Source: Nitrospira moscoviensis
GTDB lineage: Bacteria > Nitrospirota > Nitrospiria > Nitrospirales > Nitrospiraceae
NCBI RefSeq assembly: GCF_001273775.1
Contig: NZ_CP011801.1
Coordinates: 930,001-994,000 of the forward strand
Length of the DNA: 64,000 bases
Reading direction: 5' to 3'
Shown here one piece after another: positions 24,835 to 38,031 of this stretch (positions are counted from its first letter, which is position 1; the number at the start of each line of letters is the position of its first letter). Below the pieces are notes generated by a model that worked only from the letters and a program-made list of their open reading frames with translations, ran no database searches and was not told where the DNA came from. A program made the position numbers and the translations under genes.

Positions 24835-25017
24835 CCGATCCTCCGCGCAACGCCGACCTGTCCGGTCACCACTCCCTGAATCTTCCGTAGCCACTGCGTT
24901 TACCTTTTTTGTCCTTCCCCGTCTAACCCCTCAGCGACGGATCGGGTGACAGCGATTTGAACGTCCGCCGTCCGTTGGCAAGGGCTTCGGCATTGTTCCT
25001 TAACCAGGAGTGTTCTT

Positions 25018-26424
25018 ATGAGACCGTCATCGTTATTCGTATCAGTCATGGGTGTCTTGGGATTGGTGGGACTCCTGAGCGGTTGCGGCGGCGGGGAGTC
25101 ACCGACGGCCGGCGGCAGTGCCACCGGCACTGCCGCGGCATCCGGCACGATCACCGGATTCGGCAGCGTGTTTGTGAACGGCAAGAAATTCGAGACGAGC
25201 GGCGCCTCGTTCATCGTCGACGGCGAAGCCGGACGTGGCCAAGGGGACTTGAAACTCGGCATGACGGTAACAGTGACCGGTTCATTCAGCGGCGGTCAGC
25301 GATTCGCCAACTCCGTGCATCAAAAGGATGCCGTGGAGGGAGTGGTGCAATCGGTGGCGGCGGATGGACTGAGCCTCGTGGTGATGGGGCAGACGGTGCT
25401 CATCGACAGTACGACCATTTTCGACAATAACGTCGCTTCTGCGGTCGGGGACACGGTCGAGGTCAATGGCCATATCAGGCCCGGCGGCGTGATTCAGGCG
25501 ACCTTCATAGAAAAGAAGGCGGCTCAAGGGACATCGGAAGTCCGCGGCTTCGTACACAATCACAACGACGGGACGAAGACCTTCCAGATCGGCGCGCTCA
25601 TCATCAACTATGCGACAGCGCTCATCAACGACATGCCGAATCCGGCCGGCGATGCCTGGAACGGGCTTTTGGTCGAAGTGAAAGGTACGTTGTCACAAGG
25701 AACACTGGTGGCGTCGAAAGTCGAACCGGAGAATCCGGGCGTCCGACAGGCGGACGAGTTTGAAGTCGAGGGATTCGTGACGCAGGTGCTCGGCACCGGG
25801 GATTTTTTCATCGGTGGCACTCATGTGCAAACCACCTCGGGGACGGAGTTCCGCGGCGGCACGATTGATGAGATCGTCGTGGGCACAAAGCTCTCGGCAG
25901 AAGGCCGTTTGGCCAACGGCATCTTGACTGCCAAGCATGTGAAGTTCCATGAGAGCACGCGGCTGGAAGGGAACGTCGCGACGATCGACCTGGCGGCGAA
26001 GACCTTCACGATCGCCGGGCTGCCCGGCGTAACGGTCACGGTGAACAGCCAGACGGAGTTCAAGGCGAACGGCGGCACAGCGATCACCGGTCTGGGTGAC
26101 CTGGCGGTGGGCAATCACGTGCGGGTGCGTGGGCGCGCGAGCGGCACTACGTCGATCATCGCCACGCGCGTCGAGCGACGCCAGGCGGACGATGATGTCG
26201 TACTGCAGGGGCCGGTGCAGGTGCTGGCCGGTCCGAACATCACGATTCTCGGCGTCACGGTCGATACATCCGGTATCGACGAGTTCGACGGAGTGAACGA
26301 CGCTCCTATCAGCCGGACCGCTTTCTTCAATGCCGTGAAGGTCGGGGCAGTGGTGAAAGTGAAAGGCCGGTTGAACGGCGGAGTCGTGACGTGGCGTGAA
26401 GCGGAGTTGGAAGATGAAGAGTAA
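25018..26424 (+). CDS. DUF5666-repeat lipoprotein
   Basis: 468 residues. Lipoprotein signal with lipobox GLLSGC. The mature protein consists of about five DUF5666-like beta modules of ~70-80 residues, each with a GTITGFGSVFVNGKKFET-like opening and a closing GTLVASKVE-like strand (compare GRLANGILTAKHVKF and GVVTWREAELE). The modules are small OB-like barrels of unknown function, probably surface or periplasmic. AGGAG sits 9 bp before the ATG. The next, Arg-rich, gene starts 34 bp after its stop. Confidence 0.8.
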   Translation: MRPSSLFVSVMGVLGLVGLLSGCGGGESPTAGGSATGTAAASGTITGFGSVFVNGKKFETSGASFIVDGEAGRGQGDLKLGMTVTVTGSFSGGQRFANSVHQKDAVEGVVQSVAADGLSLVVMGQTVLIDSTTIFDNNVASAVGDTVEVNGHIRPGGVIQATFIEKKAAQGTSEVRGFVHNHNDGTKTFQIGALIINYATALINDMPNPAGDAWNGLLVEVKGTLSQGTLVASKVEPENPGVRQADEFEVEGFVTQVLGTGDFFIGGTHVQTTSGTEFRGGTIDEIVVGTKLSAEGRLANGILTAKHVKFHESTRLEGNVATIDLAAKTFTIAGLPGVTVTVNSQTEFKANGGTAITGLGDLAVGNHVRVRGRASGTTSIIATRVERRQADDDVVLQGPVQVLAGPNITILGVTVDTSGIDEFDGVNDAPISRTAFFNAVKVGAVVKVKGRLNGGVVTWREAELEDEE

Positions 26425-26458
26425 GGACGGAACCGAAACCTACACAAGGAGATCGACG

Positions 26459-26992
26459 ATGAAGATTCAGCGCCGACACGAAATGCTCTTGGGCCTCCTC
26501 ATCGGCTTCTTCGCCGCCGTCTCGCCGGCGGCGGGGCAATCGACCGACACGGAGCGCACTCCGCTGCCCCGCACGGACAATCGCGGACCTGGCTCCATGA
26601 ACAGCGGGCCTGGATCCCTGAACCACGGGCCCGGATCGGTCAACAGCGGATCGGATCGAAGAGACCACAGCGGTCGCCGCGGCGATGATCTGCGTGTCGC
26701 CCAAGCGGGCGAGGTCAGGCAGGACGATCGCCGTGAAGATCGTCGAGAAGACCGGCGAGCCGATCGCCGCGAGAACCGCCGGGATAATCGAGGCGGCGAA
26801 GTCCGCGGGCTCGACCGGGCCGATCAAGTCGCCGGCGAGCATGGTCGAGAGGGCCGTGACAACGCCCGGGCTGCCCAGATGGACCGGCCGAACCGGCCGG
26901 ACCGGATGGAACGGCCGCAGAGACCGGAACGGCCCGAGCGACCCCAACGGCCTGAACGTCCGGAACGACCGGAGCGCGGCGGCAGAAACTAA
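26459..26992 (+). CDS. Secreted Arg/Asp/Pro-rich low-complexity protein
   Basis: 177 residues. Signal peptide MLLGLLIGFFAAVSPAAG, then a GPGSMNSGPGSLNHGPGS repeat, a run of DRRED/DRRAD/ENRRDN units, and a tail of RPERPERP repeats ending RGGRN. AAGGAG lies 8 bp before ATG 26459. The same kind of tail ends the 29870-30766 protein, so the two share a module. Composition suggests an intrinsically disordered, positively and negatively mixed polyampholyte outside the cytoplasm. No known domain. Confidence 0.6.
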   Translation: MKIQRRHEMLLGLLIGFFAAVSPAAGQSTDTERTPLPRTDNRGPGSMNSGPGSLNHGPGSVNSGSDRRDHSGRRGDDLRVAQAGEVRQDDRREDRREDRRADRRENRRDNRGGEVRGLDRADQVAGEHGREGRDNARAAQMDRPNRPDRMERPQRPERPERPQRPERPERPERGGRN

Positions 26993-27139: not shown

Positions 27140-28072
27140 TTGATACGGATGGGGGCCATCGCAGTAGGGGTTGCAATGATGATGTTCGGAATCGAGCAAG
27201 CGGGCATCGCAGCAGACAAGGTCGAGCAGGCGCCGCTGCCGCCTGACCGGCTCTGGCAGATCGGGTTTACGCCGTCGTATTCGTCGGGCAACTTTGGAAC
27301 GAACACGACCAGCACTTTTTTCTACGCGCCCCTCTCCGTCCGCCGGCTGTTCCGGGACGGGGATGTGACGGTGATCGTTCCGTTCGTCACCGCGACGACG
27401 GATGGACGGACGACCCTCGTGGGCGGGACTGCGATACGAGTCGATGACAGCGGAGGGAGCAATTCGGGATCCGGCGGGGGCGGCGGGTCCGAGGACGATG
27501 GGGGATGCAGCGGGAAAGGGTCCAATGTAAGTGGGAAGGACCGGGTCTGCGGGACGACGACGCGTGCGCCGGGTCAAAAAGTCACCACGGCCGGTCTGGG
27601 CGACATCATTCTGCGAGGCCGGTACTACGCTGTGGAAGAGACGGAGTATCGGCCGTTGATTGCCGTGACCGGCCGGATCAAAGTCCCGACGGCGAACGAA
27701 AAGCTCGGCCTCGGGACCGGTGCCCTTGATTATGGGGTCGGCGTGGAAATGTCCAAGTTCATCGGCGACGCATGGATCGTGTTTCTGGATGGCGGCTACA
27801 ATATCATCGGCGATCCCGAGGGGCTCGAGCTCCAAAACCAGCATTGGTACGACCTCGGGGCCGGGTACTATGTGACAAGGGATCTCCTTGCCAGCGTCTA
27901 TTTTGAAGAGTACCGGGCGATTCTGCCGGGCTTCGTGAACGCGCGCGATTTCTTTTTCGCCGTCAATTACATCGCCTCCGCCGCCTGGCGGTTCAACGGC
28001 GGTGTGACCGTCGGCGTGTCGAACGGGGCGCCCGATTATCTGGTGTCGGTGGGCGCCAGCCATCGCTTCTGA
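27140..28072 (+). CDS. Outer-membrane beta-barrel protein (phenol-MetA/transporter type)
   Basis: 310 residues. Signal peptide (GAIAVGVAMMMFGIEQAGIAA) then a barrel of alternating strands ending in ...ASHRF, the C-terminal Phe of outer-membrane proteins. The pattern (LWQIGFTPSYSSGNFGTNT, GRIKVPTANEKLGLGTGALDYGVGVE) fits the PF13557-type barrels annotated as meta-pathway phenol degradation or transporter. A Gly/Ser-rich loop with two cysteines (~105-140) is probably external. The TTG start at 27140 is chosen because GGAGGGAG lies 6 bp upstream; ATG 27149 is the alternative. Confidence 0.75.
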   Translation: MIRMGAIAVGVAMMMFGIEQAGIAADKVEQAPLPPDRLWQIGFTPSYSSGNFGTNTTSTFFYAPLSVRRLFRDGDVTVIVPFVTATTDGRTTLVGGTAIRVDDSGGSNSGSGGGGGSEDDGGCSGKGSNVSGKDRVCGTTTRAPGQKVTTAGLGDIILRGRYYAVEETEYRPLIAVTGRIKVPTANEKLGLGTGALDYGVGVEMSKFIGDAWIVFLDGGYNIIGDPEGLELQNQHWYDLGAGYYVTRDLLASVYFEEYRAILPGFVNARDFFFAVNYIASAAWRFNGGVTVGVSNGAPDYLVSVGASHRF

Positions 28073-28157
28073 TCCGTCAAGGGTTGGTTTACGAAACCGG
28101 TATGGCGCCGTCTAATGAATCAGGTCAGCCCATGCGGACAGCGGCGAGTGAGGACCG

Positions 28158-28760
28158 ATGAGCGCGCCGCTGGATGAAAGCCGAGCGACGGACGAGGCGC
28201 AGCTTGTTGCCCGCTGTCTCCAGCGGGACCCCGAGGCCTTCGGGCTGTTGGTCGAGCGCCATGCCGGTGTCGTGCTGAACTTGGCCTATCGCATGGTCGG
28301 CGATCGTGTGCAGGCGGAAGATCTGGCGCAGGAGACCTTTCTGGCGGCGTTCAAGGCGCTGCCGACGTTTCGGGCCGAGGCGAAGTTTGCCACGTGGCTC
28401 TACCGCATCGCGGCGAACAAGTGCAAGGATTGGCTTCGGGCCAAGCGCCCGGGAGAAGGCCCGCTGGATGTCGATGCCGAGACGGCGCTGGACGAGCGCG
28501 TCGCCGATGAGCGCACGCCCGAACGGGCCTTGTCGCAGCAGCAAGTGGCCGGTCATTTGGATCGAGCCATCCAGCGGCTGCCGCCGCTCTATCGGGAAGC
28601 CTTTGTGCTGAAGCACGTCGAAGGGCTGAGCTATGAAGAGATGGAACCGATCCTGGACGCGAAGGCCGATACGTTGAAGATGCGGGTGTATAAAGCCCGC
28701 GTGCAACTGGCCCGGGAGCTGGCGGCCCTGAACGAGGGATCGTCGGCGACGGCGAGGTGA
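28158..28760 (+). CDS. ECF RNA polymerase sigma factor (RpoE-like)
   Basis: 200 residues. Sigma-2 region: EAFGLLVERHAGVVLNLAYR and DRVQAEDLAQETFLAAFKAL, followed by FATWLYRIAANKCKDWLRA. Sigma-4 region: AIQRLPPLYREAFVLKHVEGLSYEEM and a recognition helix with KADTLKMRVYKARVQL. This is a group IV (ECF) factor. It is followed 4 bp later by a transmembrane protein with anti-sigma features, so it should be held inactive at the membrane until a signal is received. Confidence 0.92.
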   Translation: MSAPLDESRATDEAQLVARCLQRDPEAFGLLVERHAGVVLNLAYRMVGDRVQAEDLAQETFLAAFKALPTFRAEAKFATWLYRIAANKCKDWLRAKRPGEGPLDVDAETALDERVADERTPERALSQQQVAGHLDRAIQRLPPLYREAFVLKHVEGLSYEEMEPILDAKADTLKMRVYKARVQLARELAALNEGSSATAR

Positions 28761-28764
28761 GCGG

Positions 28765-29445
28765 ATGACGGAACAGGAACGGCTCGTTCAACGGTTCATC
28801 GATCAGGAGCTGGCGCCGCGAGAGCGCGTGCAGTTTTTACAAGCCGTGGAGGAAGACGGGACGCTCCGGCGGCAGTGGCTTGCAATGGAGTTGGTGGCGG
28901 CGGAAGCGGCTCAGCTTCCGCGCCTGGCTCCCTCCGCCCGCTTCGTCGCCCAAGTCTGCGCGAAGGCCATGGCCGACAGGCCGAGCCTGGGTCGGCGGTT
29001 CATGACATTCGTGACCGCCCCCCGTGTGATCGAGTGGAACCTGGCCGGCGCGGTCGTCGCCGCCTCGATCGCAGGGTTGGCGATCTGGGGCCTGTTGCGC
29101 ATCGTGCCGGAGCGAACCGGCGAAGTGGTCGTGACGACTCAGGCGACTCAGGCCACGGCTGCGAACGAGGCGCAGGAGCCGACGGTGTTCGTCCGGCTCG
29201 TCCTGCTGCAGCCGCAGGCGCAGTCCGTCTCGGTCGCCGGCGATTTCAACGGGTGGAATCGCGCGCTCACCCAATTGGAGCGGACTGACGGCGGCATGTG
29301 GACCGCCACGATTCCGCTCAAGCCGGGCCGGTATCAATACATGTTTGTGATCGACGGCAAACACTGGATCGCCGATCCGCTGGCATCCGAGGACGCCGGC
29401 GACGGATTCGGCTCGACCAATGCGGTGCTCGATGTGTCGATCTAA
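28765..29445 (+). CDS. Anti-sigma factor with periplasmic CBM48 glycan-binding domain
   Basis: 226 residues. The cytosolic N-terminus (~1-80) resembles anti-sigma domains: LVQRFIDQELAPRERVQFLQAVEED. One transmembrane helix follows at ~95-113 (LAGAVVAASIAGLAIWGLL). The C-terminal ~90 residues are a CBM48/AMPK-type glycogen-binding module: VSVAGDFNGWNRALTQLE, GMWTATIPLKPGRYQYMFVIDG and WIADP. The aromatic residues at the glycan site (W in FNGW, W in HW) are kept. It should bind the sigma factor inside and a glucan or related signal outside. Functions are inferred from domain order. Confidence 0.8.
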   Translation: MTEQERLVQRFIDQELAPRERVQFLQAVEEDGTLRRQWLAMELVAAEAAQLPRLAPSARFVAQVCAKAMADRPSLGRRFMTFVTAPRVIEWNLAGAVVAASIAGLAIWGLLRIVPERTGEVVVTTQATQATAANEAQEPTVFVRLVLLQPQAQSVSVAGDFNGWNRALTQLERTDGGMWTATIPLKPGRYQYMFVIDGKHWIADPLASEDAGDGFGSTNAVLDVSI

Positions 29446-29498
29446 GGCGCCGGCATGGTCCCTTGCATCGGACTTGTTCGTCGGCTACCCTCGCCCGT

Positions 29499-29873
29499 AT
29501 GGGAAGAGGACTTACGGGATTACGTGCGGGGGCCGCCGTGGTGGCGGCGCTCTGCGCCTTTCTTCCGAGTTGCGCGCAGATCTGGAAGCCGGAGCCGCCT
29601 CGGCCGATCGGCGGCGCTGTGCGGTTCACGCTCTCGGCGCCCGAAGCGAAGACAGTCTTCGTCATCGGCTCCTTCAATGGGTGGGTCAAGGGCGCCACGC
29701 CGATGGCGGCGGTCGGCTCCTCCGGCCTGTGGTCGGTGGACGTGCCGCTGAAAGAAGGGGAATACACGTTCATGTATCTCGTGGACGGGGTACGGTGGGT
29801 GACGCCGCCGCTCGCGGACGATTTTGTGACGGACGGGTTCGGGCAGACTAACGGCGTGGTGATCGTACGATGA
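29499..29873 (+). CDS. CBM48 lipoprotein
   Basis: 124 residues. Lipobox LPSC after a short hydrophobic segment, then a single CBM48 module: FTLSAPEAKTVFVIGSFNGW, GLWSVDVPLKEGEYTFMYLVDG and WVTPP. It is clearly paralogous to the C-terminal domain of the preceding anti-sigma protein but is anchored by lipid instead of a helix. ATG 29499 gives the lipoprotein signal. The next gene overlaps its stop (ATGA), so the sigma, anti-sigma, CBM48 and secreted-helical genes form an operon. Confidence 0.78.
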   Translation: MGRGLTGLRAGAAVVAALCAFLPSCAQIWKPEPPRPIGGAVRFTLSAPEAKTVFVIGSFNGWVKGATPMAAVGSSGLWSVDVPLKEGEYTFMYLVDGVRWVTPPLADDFVTDGFGQTNGVVIVR

Positions 29874-30766
29874 TGCATGGACGCATGAAAAGCGGTTTCG
29901 TATCCGTGGTCCTGCTGTCGGTGCTGTGCAGGGGTCCCGCTTTGGCCGAGTCGCTCTCCGTGCAAGATCGGGACGAGATCAACCGGCTCCGGGTCGCCCA
30001 GGGGCACAGCGCGGAAGCGGTCGAGCCGCTCATCGAACAGGTCAACAGGGCCGGTGAGAAAGGTATTCCGCCGGAGCCGCTTGCCAACAAAGTCAAAGAA
30101 GGGTTGGCCAAGGGTGTCGACCCGAAACGGATCGAACCGGTGTTGCGGCAGCTCACGTCCCATTTCGAAGCCGCGCAGGATCTGCTCCGTGAAGCCGGAA
30201 CCCGCGGCGCCATCGAAGGCAATCGCCAGCGGGCGATGGAGACGATGGCCGAGGCCCTGGCGCGCGGCGCGACCGTCGACGAAGTGCGTGAGCTGGCGCG
30301 CGTGGCGCAGGACGGCAAACAGAAAGTGACGCAGGACCTGTTGGCGGCCGGCGCCAAGAGTTTGGCCGTGATGAAAGAAGGAAAGATTCCGTCTAAAGAC
30401 GGAGCGGCGTTGGTCAGCGAAGGCATCCGCCAGGGCTATCGTCCGTCGGAGCTGCTGGATCTCAGCCGGGAAGTCAAGCGGCGGGGAGCCGAATTTCAGG
30501 AAGGCCGCGCCAATCTCCGGACGCTGCGCGAGCAAATCAGCCGCGGCGAGCGGGGCGACCGGTTGTTTCGAGAAGACCGCGGCGGTACCGGCGGCGGCGA
30601 CCGCGGCGGCCGCGGAGACTCCGGCCGGGACCGGCTCGACCGGCCGGATCGCTCCGGCCACGGCGATCGGCCCGACAGGGTGGAGCGTCCAGAAAGGCTG
30701 GACCGCCCGGATCGACCGGAGCGACCTGAGCGTCCTGATCGGTCGGGCAGCGGCCGTGACCGCTAG
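29870..30766 (+). CDS. Secreted helical protein with Arg/Asp/Pro-rich tail
   Basis: 298 residues. A signal peptide (SGFVSVVLLSVLCRGPALA) precedes ~200 residues of helical sequence with two internal similarities, AGEKGIPPEPLANKVKEGL and AEALARGATVDEVRELARV, resembling tandem short helical hairpins. The last ~70 residues are DRGG, RLDRPDRSG and PERPERPDR repeats like those of the 26459-26992 protein. Family unknown. The ATG overlaps the upstream CBM48 gene's stop. A hairpin at 30838-30859 follows. Confidence 0.6.
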   Translation: MMHGRMKSGFVSVVLLSVLCRGPALAESLSVQDRDEINRLRVAQGHSAEAVEPLIEQVNRAGEKGIPPEPLANKVKEGLAKGVDPKRIEPVLRQLTSHFEAAQDLLREAGTRGAIEGNRQRAMETMAEALARGATVDEVRELARVAQDGKQKVTQDLLAAGAKSLAVMKEGKIPSKDGAALVSEGIRQGYRPSELLDLSREVKRRGAEFQEGRANLRTLREQISRGERGDRLFREDRGGTGGGDRGGRGDSGRDRLDRPDRSGHGDRPDRVERPERLDRPDRPERPERPDRSGSGRDR

Positions 30767-30959: not shown

Positions 30960-31132
30960 TCATGGACAGTGGTACATGAGACGCACGGAATGTGACAGAT
31001 CGATACGCCTCCGGTCCAACGAGACCGTGACTGAGCCAGGTCGTCACATTCCTCCAGTCCACAAGCCCGGACAGTTGCCAGGGCCAGCGAGCCCGCATCA
31101 TGACAAGGACGGGCTTCACCAAGGAGGGGGCG
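30960..31132 (+). ncRNA. Possible IS110 bridge-RNA region (5' non-coding end of the relic)
   Basis: About 170 bp without a convincing gene directly upstream of the IS110-family transposase start. IS110-group elements encode a structured bridge (seek) RNA here, between the left end and the transposase gene, which directs target choice. I cannot fold it or define its ends by eye. The call rests on position and on the known layout of this family. Confidence 0.3.
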
Positions 31133-31749
<617 letters not shown>

Positions 31750-32387: not shown

Positions 32388-35045
32388 ATGGAGATCATCG
32401 CCACGCATAGCCATGCCGATTTCGACGGCCTGGCCTCCATGGTCGCCGCGCGCAAGCTCTTTCCGGAGGCCCAGCTCGTGCTGCCGGCCGGCGGCCAAGA
32501 GGCCGTGCGCGATTTCCTCGCCGTTCACGATCTCGGGCTCGCCAAACTGAAAGAGCTCGACCTCTCCCACGTGCGAAGACTGATCCTCGTCGATACGCAG
32601 GAGCCCGACCGCATCGGCGCGCTCAAGGTCTGCATCGAGAATCCCTCCGTCGAAGTCGTCGTGTTCGATCATCATGTGGACGAAGCATCCATCTGTGCAG
32701 GCCGCTCGCCGCACTCCGTCATCGACTCCGTAGGCGCGACCACGACGATTCTCGTCGAGCAACTGCGCCGGCAGAAGATCGCTATTACGCCGTTCGAAGC
32801 GACGGTGATGGCATTGGGGCTCTATGAAGAAACCGGGTCGTTCGGGTTCGCCTCCACGACCAGTCGGGATTTGGAAGCCGGGGCGTTCCTCATCGCGTCC
32901 GGCGCCGACGTGAATCTGGTGACGGAAACGTTGCGGCGCCCGCTCGATCCCGACGCCGTCGCCTTGCTCAACGATCTGCTCGAGCACAGCGAGGTGCATT
33001 ATTTGGAAGGCCGAAAAGTCCTCGTCGCCACGAGCACGCTCGATCGGCGCCGCGGGGAGGCGGCCGATGTGGTGCACCGGCTCACCGAATTGGAGGGGGT
33101 CGATGCCGTGATCGTCGCCGTCACGATGGAGGACAAGGTCCAACTCATCGGCAGAAGCCGGCGGCCCGAAATCGACGTCGGCTGGATCGCGCGCGAGTTC
33201 GGCGGGGGTGGGCATGCGGTGGCCGCCGCCGCGAGCGTCAAAGGCCAGCCGCTGGCCGAGGTGCACGAGCGGCTGGTCCACCTGCTCACGACCCGGTACC
33301 GGCCCACATTGCTCGCGCAGGATGTCATGACGAAACCCGTGAAGGCGATCGCCCAGGACACCACGATCGCCGAGGTCGGCCAGCGGATGACCACCTATGG
33401 CTTGAACGTGTTTCCGATTCTCGACGAGAAAGACCGGTACGCCGGGCTGGTGAGCCGGGAGTCGATTCAAAAAGCGCTGTTCCATCGATTGGGGAAGAGA
33501 TCCGTGCGGGAGATCATGCAGACCGACGCCTACTCCGCCCGGCCGGAGACGCCCTTTCACGACATCGAAACGGCGATGATCGAGCGCAACCAACGGTTCG
33601 TGCCGGTGATCAGCGGCACGAAGATCGTGGGGGTGATCACCAGGACGGATTTGCTGCGGACGTTGCACGACGATGTGCTCGGCGGCGCCAGGGTGCGCGC
33701 GCGACGGCCGGGACAGGCCGAGGACCAGTCTGCGGGGCGCCACCGCAATGTGCAGGGCCTGGTGCGGAGCCGGCTGCCGCATCGGCTCGTCGCCTTGCTG
33801 GAGGAGGCGGGGCGCCTGGCCGATCGTTTGAACGTGTCGCTGTATGTCGTCGGCGGGTGTGTCCGGGACCTCTTGCTGGGCATCGAGAATCTCGATCTCG
33901 ATCTGGTCGTCGAGGGCGACGGGATCCTGTTCGCCAGGAAATTGGCCGAGGCGAAACAGGCCCGCGTGAAGGCGCACGACCGCTTCGGCACGGCCATCGT
34001 GCTCCTGCCGGACGGATTCAAGCTCGACGTCGCCACGGCGCGAACGGAATACTACGAGTATCCCACGGCGCTGCCCACCGTCGAGCAGAGTTCGATCAAG
34101 AAAGACCTGTACCGCCGGGATTTCACGATCAACGCGCTCGCCGTCCGTTTGAACGCCAAGGGTTTCGGGGAAGTGCTGGATTTTTACGGAGGCCAGCGCG
34201 ATCTTCACGACAAGATCGTGCGCGTCCTGCACGGCCTGAGTTTCGTCGAAGATCCCACGCGGGTGTTTCGCGCCATCCGCTTCGCCGTGCGATTCGGCTT
34301 CCGTCTGGGCCGGGACACCGAAGCCTTGATCGAAGGCGCGGTGAAGATGAATCTCTTCCATCGATTGTCCGGCCATCGGCTGCTGGAAGAGCTGAAATTG
34401 CTGTTGGCCGAACGGGACGCGATGCAGGCCGTCAAACGCATGGCGGACTTCGGACTGCTGCGATTCATCCATCCGAAGCTCGGCTGGTCGTCGCGCCTGC
34501 AAGCGGGATTGCGCGCCGCGGAACAGGCGCTGGGTTGGTACCGGCTGCTCTATCTCGACCGAGAGATCGCGGGCTGGCTCGTCTACGTGGTGGCGCTGCT
34601 GGAGGTCTTGCCCGAGCGGGCGGTGGCCGACGTGCTCAAGCGGTTTCCCTTTACACAAGCGGAAGCCGCGGTGATCCGAGCCGCTCGGCTGAACGGCCAG
34701 GCGATCGTCCGGCAGTTGAGCCGACGCCCGCCGCCCAAGCCCGCTCAGGTCTATCGACTTCTGTGCGGCCTGTCCGACGAAACCCTACTGGGGTTGATGG
34801 CGCGCAGCAAGGCCGAGGCGATCATGCGCGCGATCTCCGCCTTTTTGACGACCTATCAGCATGTGAAGCCGTTATTGACCGGAGCGGATCTGAAAGCGAT
34901 GGGGCTCAAACCCGGCCCGCAGTTCAAGCAGATTCTGGATCGGCTCTTGGATGCCCGTCTCAACGGGGAGGTGCACACGGAGCTTGACGAGCGCGACCTC
35001 GCGGCCCGTCTTATGAAGCAGAATGCGCCGCCGCCGTCTCGCTAG
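32388..35045 (+). CDS. tRNA nucleotidyltransferase (A-adding/CCA type) fused to DHH and CBS domains
   Basis: 885 residues. A DHH phosphoesterase domain (~1-305) has THSHADFDGLAS, LVDTQEPDRI, VFDHH and the DHHA1 FGGGGHAVAAAASV. Two CBS repeats (~312-430) follow: AQDVMTKPVKAIAQ and VREIMQTDAYSARP. Then comes the class II poly(A) polymerase/CCA head: LYVVGGCVRDLLLG, NLDLDLVVEG, KDLYRRDFTINALA and DPTRVFRAIRFAVRFGF. This DHH-CBS-PAP architecture is known from A-adding tRNA nucleotidyltransferases of deep-branching bacteria, where CC- and A-adding activities may be split. It should mature tRNA 3' ends. A predicted leaderless start. Confidence 0.9.
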   Translation: MEIIATHSHADFDGLASMVAARKLFPEAQLVLPAGGQEAVRDFLAVHDLGLAKLKELDLSHVRRLILVDTQEPDRIGALKVCIENPSVEVVVFDHHVDEASICAGRSPHSVIDSVGATTTILVEQLRRQKIAITPFEATVMALGLYEETGSFGFASTTSRDLEAGAFLIASGADVNLVTETLRRPLDPDAVALLNDLLEHSEVHYLEGRKVLVATSTLDRRRGEAADVVHRLTELEGVDAVIVAVTMEDKVQLIGRSRRPEIDVGWIAREFGGGGHAVAAAASVKGQPLAEVHERLVHLLTTRYRPTLLAQDVMTKPVKAIAQDTTIAEVGQRMTTYGLNVFPILDEKDRYAGLVSRESIQKALFHRLGKRSVREIMQTDAYSARPETPFHDIETAMIERNQRFVPVISGTKIVGVITRTDLLRTLHDDVLGGARVRARRPGQAEDQSAGRHRNVQGLVRSRLPHRLVALLEEAGRLADRLNVSLYVVGGCVRDLLLGIENLDLDLVVEGDGILFARKLAEAKQARVKAHDRFGTAIVLLPDGFKLDVATARTEYYEYPTALPTVEQSSIKKDLYRRDFTINALAVRLNAKGFGEVLDFYGGQRDLHDKIVRVLHGLSFVEDPTRVFRAIRFAVRFGFRLGRDTEALIEGAVKMNLFHRLSGHRLLEELKLLLAERDAMQAVKRMADFGLLRFIHPKLGWSSRLQAGLRAAEQALGWYRLLYLDREIAGWLVYVVALLEVLPERAVADVLKRFPFTQAEAAVIRAARLNGQAIVRQLSRRPPPKPAQVYRLLCGLSDETLLGLMARSKAEAIMRAISAFLTTYQHVKPLLTGADLKAMGLKPGPQFKQILDRLLDARLNGEVHTELDERDLAARLMKQNAPPPSR

Positions 35046-36654: not shown

Positions 36655-38031
36655 TCAGAAATTGACCCGCATGGTGATGGCTCCGGCGTGAGTCGTCGTC
36701 TGGTAGATGCCGTTCACGGCGGCGATGGGGTTGCCGGTGACCGACCGCGATTCGAACAAGAACACGTGATACGCCAAATCCAGCCCGAGCATGGTACTGC
36801 TGAACCGGCTTTCTTTAGAACCGCCGCACGTGATCAGCCCCAGAAACCTGCCGTTTTCTTTGCAAAGGAAGCCGAGTCCGACTGACAGAACGTGAACCGG
36901 TGCATCCGGCGCGGCGGGGTTGAAATTCACATCGGGAATTGCGGCCTCTGAATGGAGGTACCCGGTGCGAATGGCGACGCTCCAATCGGGATGATTCGGG
37001 ATCGACAGCCATTTGTATTCGGTCCCGATTCCCACGCTGACGGCATTGTTCCACCGTTGGGGATTTGCGATGGTCGTGCCGTTTGAGAGACGGACGTCGA
37101 AGTCGCGAATCGACTGCCAGCGTGCGTAATCCACGTCGACCTCAACTTTCCACTGCCGATCCCGATTGCGCACCGGCCATACGGCCAAGCCCCAGGTGTA
37201 GATTTCCGGGAGGCGAATCGAGGAGCTTGCGTCTGCCATCAGCGCTCCGTTCACCCGCAATTCTCCGTTGACCGGCAACACCGCCTGGCTACGCCACACA
37301 AAGGCGAGATTGAGCAGCGGCTCGCCGTCTTCCGTCTGCAGAACCTTGTACAGGAGACTGGCGTTGAGCCCGGCGGTCGTGCCCTTGCCGTTCAATTCGA
37401 CGGTCGTGCCGCCTTGTATCGACCGCTGTTCCAAGTGGCCTTCCCCAAGGAAACTCGCGAACGTGAAGATGTCTGCGCCGAGGCCGACGGACAGGCGATC
37501 GGTCACCTTATAGGCCAGCGTCGGTTTGATATCGAGGAGCGGGAATTGGGCGAATGTCACGGCACTGGCAAACGGACCATCCCGGGGGTACTTGGCCGCG
37601 AATCCAAAAAGATTCTGCAGCCCAAGACCGACCGAGAGATCGCCGAGTGCGTGAACGCCGAGGTCCTTCAAATTCGCGGTGACGAACAGTTGTCCAGGCG
37701 GCGGCAGACCAATCGGAAAGGGGCGCTCGTTTGCGACCGAGCCGCCGGTCTGACTGGTGAAGCGCGTATTGACGCTGACGAACTGAACACCGACGGTGTG
37801 TTGAACACCGTGCAACTGTGTCATGCCGGCGGGATTGTAGAACACGGCCGTGGGATCGTCCGCCTGCGCCGCGAAGGCGTTGCCTTGTGCAATGGCGGCG
37901 GCGCCTTGAAACGGATTGCGAATGCCGTCGGCTTCCGTCCGTTGAGGTGTGGTCAATCCTATAGCAACGATGAGCGTGAGAGGGAGAAGGGCGAGGTAAT
38001 AAGGCAAGTGACGGTTGCTCTTGTGTGGCAC
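36655..38031 (-). CDS. FadL/OmpP1/TodX-family outer-membrane porin
   Basis: 458 residues. Signal peptide (YYLALLPLTLIVAIGLTTPQ). The FadL-type hatch segment is seen in GAAAIAQGNAFAAQADDPTA and VFYNPAGMTQL, the best conserved block of the family, followed by ~400 residues of alternating barrel strands (SVGLGADIFTFASFLG, TAGLNASLLYKV, VEVDVDYARWQSIRDF) and a terminal Phe (MRVNF). Members import long-chain fatty acids or aromatic hydrocarbons across the outer membrane, and the substrate here is unknown. Stands alone; a decayed BTAD regulator begins ~140 bp upstream on the other strand. Confidence 0.85.
   Translation of the reverse strand: MPHKSNRHLPYYLALLPLTLIVAIGLTTPQRTEADGIRNPFQGAAAIAQGNAFAAQADDPTAVFYNPAGMTQLHGVQHTVGVQFVSVNTRFTSQTGGSVANERPFPIGLPPPGQLFVTANLKDLGVHALGDLSVGLGLQNLFGFAAKYPRDGPFASAVTFAQFPLLDIKPTLAYKVTDRLSVGLGADIFTFASFLGEGHLEQRSIQGGTTVELNGKGTTAGLNASLLYKVLQTEDGEPLLNLAFVWRSQAVLPVNGELRVNGALMADASSSIRLPEIYTWGLAVWPVRNRDRQWKVEVDVDYARWQSIRDFDVRLSNGTTIANPQRWNNAVSVGIGTEYKWLSIPNHPDWSVAIRTGYLHSEAAIPDVNFNPAAPDAPVHVLSVGLGFLCKENGRFLGLITCGGSKESRFSSTMLGLDLAYHVFLFESRSVTGNPIAAVNGIYQTTTHAGAITMRVNF

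Follow-up and report, generated by a model that had tools for sequence, protein, structure and literature searches.

We propose that a locus of Nitrospira moscoviensis encodes an autoregulated ECF sigma factor whose anti-sigma partner uses a CBM48 module to sense a periplasmic ligand, likely a saccharide, with a set of envelope genes as the output, a reading to which we assign a probability of about 0.58. The locus lies in a window of 64,000 nucleotides (contig NZ_CP011801.1, positions 930,001 to 994,000), the whole stretch of DNA that was analysed and from whose first letter positions are counted here. A first-pass annotation had placed a sigma/anti-sigma pair with a CBM48 module, together with a CBM48 lipoprotein, at 28158-29873; these gene coordinates hold, and the description is confirmed at the level of sequence.

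The sigma factor gene (28158-28760, plus strand) encodes 200 amino acids with region 2 (PF04542, Sigma70_r2, 1.3e-22) and region 4 (PF08281, Sigma70_r4_2, 8.9e-12) as its only sigma regions, the sigma3 region being absent from its Pfam matches, as is typical of the ECF group; it also matches TIGR02937 (sigma70-ECF, 8.3e-31). Only 4 bp separate it from the start of the anti-sigma gene (28765-29445, plus strand), whose 226-residue product comprises an RsiW-like domain (about residues 1-72), a transmembrane helix (89-111), a disordered or flexible linker (114-135), and a C-terminal beta sandwich, the CBM48 module (139-226). The N-terminal part forms four helices (3-12, 18-30, 32-50 and 58-70), and the RsiW anti-sigma domain 5wuq_C matches the anti-sigma profile with an E of 1.4e-9 over profile positions 6-74. 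The identity of this domain rests on that profile match, because the matches listed by VIA-align for the anti-sigma model all went to its CBM48 part. Residues 89-111 are the single hydrophobic helix of the protein, and one hydrophobic stretch occurs at the same place in all full-length anti-sigmas of the neighbourhood set, so that the topology proposed earlier, one membrane crossing with the CBM48 outside, agrees with both the helix and the CBM48 model. An N-terminal anti-sigma domain, one transmembrane segment and a gene adjoining that of the sigma factor are features of the membrane anti-sigma factors of the RsiW/RseA fold group, and we infer that the N-terminal domain binds the sigma.

HxxxCxxC is the zinc motif of RsiW and of the ZAS anti-sigmas. 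In the alignment with RsiW, the His/Cys/Cys zinc ligands are absent from the Nitrospira protein, which places it outside the ZAS subgroup. Pfam matches at E<=0.1 contain no RsgI domain, and the partner is an ECF sigma, not SigI; similarly, RseA, RseB and FecR domains are absent from the Pfam matches of the sigma, the anti-sigma and the lipoprotein. One distant anti-sigma (L266) joins CBM48 to an anti-sigma domain of the zinc-finger type (zf-HC2, 2.1e-4, just under the cut-off), and is perhaps the ancestral form.

The arrangement of sigma, anti-sigma and CBM48 is conserved across genomes and loci, and is therefore not a chance juxtaposition. Among 395 Nitrospirota genomes, 149 match the anti-sigma at E<=1e-5, many of them through CBM48 alone, and 59 hold it at full length by a hand count of the listed rows. 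Ca. N. defluvii also has the system, with a copy that is 54% identical. We compared the best 80 of 441 related loci, taken from named genomes. Within this set, the sigma gene lies 5' of the anti-sigma in 79/80, another CBM48 no more than about 3.5 kb away in 75/80 and the exported helical protein (29870-30766 here) near the anti-sigma in 76/80, with several of the misses falling at contig ends. The beta-barrel column of this comparison, and of that of the twenty loci below, was left out of account, one of its queries (L052_8) being itself a sigma protein. The pair called in the first-pass annotation is thus borne out by the Pfam sigma domains, the RsiW profile match and the sigma gene upstream in nearly every one of these loci. 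Moreover, sequence comparison shows that sigma and anti-sigma are inherited together: no sigma above 38% identity was found in 20 same-genus genomes without the anti-sigma, against 68-70% in two genomes that have it. Gene order varies, the lipoprotein gene following the anti-sigma in Nitrospira and preceding the sigma in other Nitrospirota. In one Nitrospira genome (G088, locus L055) the system seems to have decayed: the cluster has no DUF5666, barrel or sigma gene, and what is left of the anti-sigma is fragments interrupted by a stop codon; the CBM48 lipoprotein and the helical protein are still encoded.

The pair is also present in L152, L156 and L129, which come from MAGs assigned to Rokubacteria, Deltaproteobacteria and Vicinamibacterales, respectively, assignments that may be in error. 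Of the genomes in the phylum of L156, 19/195 match at E<=1e-12, about nine of them over most of the anti-sigma, and in that of L152 the matches (23/95 genomes) run mostly through CBM48 alone. Twenty loci of these two phyla were examined. In L156 and L259, the ORF directly after the anti-sigma joins an outer-membrane-protein-like N-terminal part, so called from our reading of a sequence without a Pfam match, to a C-terminal CBM48, while four others (L257, L258, L260 and L261) have, about 1 kb downstream, a CBM48 ORF that begins like a lipoprotein.

The CBM48 module of the anti-sigma (29179-29442, plus strand; residues 139-226) is assigned by both family score and fold. Residues 149-225 match CBM_48 (5.5e-11) and AMPK1_CBM (1e-10), both above the Pfam cut-offs, and the model superposes on the AMPK beta1 CBM (1z0m_B) with a Z of 13.4 and an rmsd of 1.4 over 81/81 residues (Foldseek, VIA-align). 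By sequence profile, no solved structure is closer than the CBM48 module of a GH13 pullulanase (5ot1). The solved relatives also include feruloyl esterases and the dextran surface-binding protein BT3088, so CBM48 occurs beyond the cytosolic glycogen enzymes that the first-pass annotation had taken it normally to mark. We take W100, K126, W133 and N150 to be the positions of the AMPK glycogen-binding site, with their usual numbering and roles. Across 26 anti-sigmas, the equivalents of W100 and W133 (W164 and W201 here) are Trp in 26/26 each and that of N150 is Asn in 25/26; in 18 lipoproteins, the same three positions are kept in 18/18, 17/18 and 18/18, respectively. The K126 position is occupied by Met in 24/26 anti-sigmas and Ser in the other 2/26, and by Leu (9), Met (7), Ile (1) or Arg (1) in the 18 lipoproteins. 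Another CBM48 protein of the same genome, encoded near 3.66 Mb and apparently cytosolic, keeps the Lys in a YQYKF stretch; two further CBM48-matching ORFs lie close to it. Since the stacking site is kept and the Lys lost, the modules of the anti-sigma and lipoprotein look like a distinct subgroup, and AMPK-like glycogen binding cannot be assumed for a site with Met or Leu at this position. The CBM48 is probably the ligand-binding sensor of the ECF system, and that the ligand it senses is a glycan is plausible.

The second CBM48, which the earlier reading had put on a lipoprotein of the same operon, is indeed present: the gene at 29499-29873 (plus strand) encodes 124 amino acids that match AMPK1_CBM (4.9e-9) and CBM_48 (1.1e-8), with a lipobox at Cys25. 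Its stop codon is overlapped by the gene for an exported all-helical protein of no assigned family (29870-30766, plus strand), which has a low-complexity tail and a confident AlphaFold model (pLDDT 92.7), with no PDB match at E<=0.001 in a Foldseek search. On the 5' side, also on the plus strand, lie three genes for exported or outer-membrane proteins. The first (25018-26424, start at 25018 or 25048) encodes a secreted or lipoprotein-like DUF5666 repeat protein (PF18914, 1.9e-46), which the majority of Nitrospira loci have beside the sigma operon and which is a probable member of the regulon. The second, taken from the ORF list (26396-26992, start uncertain), is a low-complexity secreted protein without a Pfam match that ends in an RPERPERP tail, and a similar tail is found in the cluster protein c27 of two other loci (L043 and L048). 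The third (27140-28072, start TTG 27140 or ATG 27149) is an outer-membrane beta-barrel-type protein (Phenol_MetA_deg, PF13557, 1.7e-6), and every Nitrospira-family locus compared has a homologue of it directly 5' of the sigma gene.

Low-complexity tails are common to the exported proteins of the cluster, being of the RPERPERP type in Nitrospira (26396-26992 and 29870-30766) and Gly/Met-rich (GSGMGG) in other Nitrospirota (L058, L059, L063 and others). Directly 3' of the operon, an IS110-type transposase is split between two overlapping frames (31100-31405 and 31384-31749; Transposase_20 8e-18, DEDD_Tnp_IS110 4e-6, the latter just under the cut-off). Beyond it, a fusion of the DHH/CBS/tRNA-nucleotidyltransferase type (32388-35045; DHH, DHHA1, CBS, PolyA_pol) is a frequent 3' neighbour of the cluster, and a FadL/TodX-type outer-membrane transporter (36658-38007, minus strand; Toluene_X 1e-26) is encoded without the promoter motif described below.

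A bipartite sequence, GTTTAC-N16-CGTCTAA(T), at 28087-28115 (plus strand), 42 bp 5' of the sigma start codon, is the predicted ECF promoter, and is conserved across Nitrospirota: Nitrospira loci carry GTTTAC-N16-CGTCTAAT and other Nitrospirota TGTAAC-N16-CGTCTTAT 5' of the sigma gene. A strict version of the pattern precedes the sigma in 64/80 of the best 80 of 441 loci, the other 16/80 being without a strict match. A conserved motif in front of its own gene is the arrangement of an autoregulated ECF sigma, and autoregulation is predicted from it. In the outgroup order, where the lipoprotein gene lies 5' of the promoter, it would not be on the same transcript from that promoter. Searching the 4.59 Mb genome for exact matches with spacers of 14-19, and for N16 with <=1 mismatch, gave three copies at <=1 mismatch, all exact, against 0.0033 exact copies expected genome-wide under an order-3 model; the reversed control pattern gave one match, and for the window alone the expectation is 0.23 matches with <=2 mismatches. 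The second copy (24898-24926, plus strand) lies 5' of the DUF5666/beta-barrel operon, and the third, unlinked, at 865550 of the genome, 5' of the gene for a 129-amino-acid lipoprotein, homologues of which head the upstream (DUF5666/barrel) cluster in several relatives. All three thus precede envelope or system genes. The site before the sigma provides no independent evidence, because regions 5' of sigma genes were the source of the motif, and the other two sites do.

The motif largely follows the system across the family. Twenty same-family genomes with the system contain 56 motif matches (19/20 genomes; 45 with N16) and 20 without it contain eight (7/20 genomes; three with N16), while the reversed control shows no difference in the same genomes (41 versus 37); the Mann-Whitney comparison of 20 versus 20 treats related genomes as independent, and its p is not taken as a probability. 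Inspection of 30 motif loci found the motif before the sigma in four, the lipoprotein gene of the third copy in 12, the DUF5666 gene in one and one outer-membrane protein family in four (TraF_2, PF13729, an assignment tested for L181 only), with no recognised target behind it in 9/30. One genome (G197) has the system with no exact motif match. Three others (G258, G266 and G324; loci L191, L180 and L176) lack this sigma and keep an exact N16 motif before the unlinked lipoprotein gene, from which it follows that another sigma may use the motif; the copies there may reflect a second sigma of the same specificity or a relic. Among the outgroup Nitrospirota, motif matches occur in 21/30 genomes searched and precede the sigma, Gly/Met-rich exported proteins and others.

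No carbohydrate enzyme was found among these targets. Thus, judging from the genes behind the motif, the sigma seems to control a few genes for outer-membrane and secreted proteins, not genes for starch or glycogen enzymes. The first-pass annotation had linked the sigma to two alpha-glucan enzymes at the start of the window and suggested looking for the motif upstream of debranching genes. The gene at 966-2975 is a glycogen debranching enzyme (GDE_N/GDE_C), as had been said, and the one at 14-946 matches MGH1-like/GH63 glycosidases instead; both lie about 25 kb from the operon and lack its promoter motif, and the own-genome searches found no alpha-glucan enzyme behind the motif, leading to envelope proteins only. 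An alpha-glucan regulon was considered and rejected for this genome, as no glycan gene lies behind the motif, a judgement that leaves room for weak or non-canonical sites.

How the parts might work together can be outlined as follows. The RsiW-like domain of the one-pass anti-sigma would hold the ECF sigma at the inner membrane. The CBM48 of the anti-sigma would bind or lose a ligand in the periplasm, most likely a chain of saccharides, for example a glucan or an intermediate of a surface polysaccharide. This change would alter the anti-sigma, probably through regulated proteolysis by analogy with RsiW and RsgI, and release the sigma, which would then transcribe its own operon and a small envelope set comprising the CBM48 lipoprotein, beta-barrels, lipoproteins and exported proteins. 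The lipoprotein probably sits beside the outer-membrane barrel, where it could sample or buffer the same ligand. We infer the signal-carrying role of the CBM48, and with it the saccharide ligand, the proteolytic release and the role of the lipoprotein. A ligand role is favoured because the stacking residues of both CBM48s vary little or not at all while overall identity is about 30%, and because the module recurs in the partner protein. The lack of carbohydrate enzymes among the targets, in turn, suggests that the envelope is being surveyed, not that glucans are being consumed.

The main rival, and a live one even if we think it unlikely, is that CBM48 serves here as a protein-docking module: the CBM48 of the lipoprotein, the barrel or both would bind that of the anti-sigma, and loss of this contact when outer-membrane assembly fails would free the sigma, in a sugar-free, RseA/RseB-like manner. 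The presence of two CBM48s in one system, the fused outer-membrane-protein-like ORFs of L156 and L259, the loss of the Lys126 equivalent and the envelope nature of the targets all fit such docking, and the CBM48s of CE1 esterases clasp each other in the dimer and show no affinity to the glycans tested (PMC8040265). However, docking would not require the stacking Trp and Asn residues to stay nearly invariant at about 30% identity. It is improbable that the module is an inert stalk or protease-protection domain, with the signal entering through the transmembrane segment, linker or cytosol, since the binding site is conserved and the CBM48 recurs in partner proteins, even if the linker (114-135), being disordered, would be a suitable place for cleavage. 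That the system senses alpha-glucans in the periplasm and induces genes for their degradation is very improbable, for although the CBM48 fold, its pullulanase relative and the debranching enzyme at 966-2975 would suit it, none of the three genomic motif copies precedes a glycan enzyme and none lies by the CBM48 ORFs near 3.66 Mb.

If the saccharide-sensing reading is right, the envelope signalling of Nitrospira and its relatives includes a defined circuit for which the promoter and a handful of targets are known, and several phyla have turned a module familiar from AMPK and glycogen enzymes to signalling outside the cytoplasm. Moreover, the promoter would allow the signal to be tested in a heterologous reporter, with no need to grow the host. 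It is tempting to speculate further, tentatively, on a multi-phylum glycan surveillance of the outer membrane, in which the anti-sigma at the inner membrane and a lipoprotein or outer-membrane-protein-like fusion at the outer one bear the same AMPK-type module, so that the ECF sigma would sense the place to which an envelope saccharide is brought, or whether it arrives at all, and adjust the outer-membrane protein set.

Several known systems resemble this one in part. SigW and RsiW of Bacillus subtilis are an ECF sigma and an anti-sigma with one transmembrane segment; the anti-sigma domain is homologous (5wuq_C), but in Nitrospira the zinc ligands are replaced and the CBM48 ectodomain is an addition. 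RpoE, RseA and RseB combine an ECF sigma, a one-pass anti-sigma, a further extracytoplasmic partner and outer-membrane targets, all of which recur here; in contrast, the Nitrospira proteins have no Pfam family match to RseA or RseB and carry CBM48 modules instead. The claim of a new signalling logic was too strong, as anti-sigma factors with an extracellular carbohydrate-binding module have been published: RsgI1-6 of Clostridium thermocellum are anti-sigmaI factors with CBM3, PA14 and GH10 ectodomains (PMC4711584). Like the Nitrospira protein, RsgI is described there as crossing the membrane once, ending in an extracytoplasmic carbohydrate module and being encoded together with an autoregulated sigma. 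However, SigI is not an ECF factor, and the RsgI system has a Gram-positive host, CBM3, a cellulosome regulon and an RsgI-N domain, whereas the Nitrospira system has an ECF sigma, CBM48, no RsgI-N, envelope proteins as its output and a second CBM48. ECF52 (SCO4117; PMC8999054) likewise joins ECF signalling to an extracytoplasmic sugar-binding-type domain, with a carbohydrate-binding extension on the sigma itself, so that anti-sigma and sensor are fused to the sigma in one protein instead of being encoded by separate genes as in Nitrospira. Sugar-regulated ECF systems are also reviewed in PMC10766802. A CBM48 anti-sigma factor is not described in the literature searched, which was mostly open-access, ECF classification papers aside, and this is no proof of absence. 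Finally, AMPK beta, branching enzyme, pullulanase (5ot1) and CE1 feruloyl esterases carry a CBM48 of the same fold, and the main site residues of the AMPK module are also common to the Nitrospira modules, except for Lys126, replaced by Met or Leu. The system is, by its domains, a member of the ECF sigma, RsiW-type anti-sigma (without the zinc motif) and CBM48 groups, in which, unlike in those proteins, the CBM48 sits on an anti-sigma factor and on a lipoprotein.
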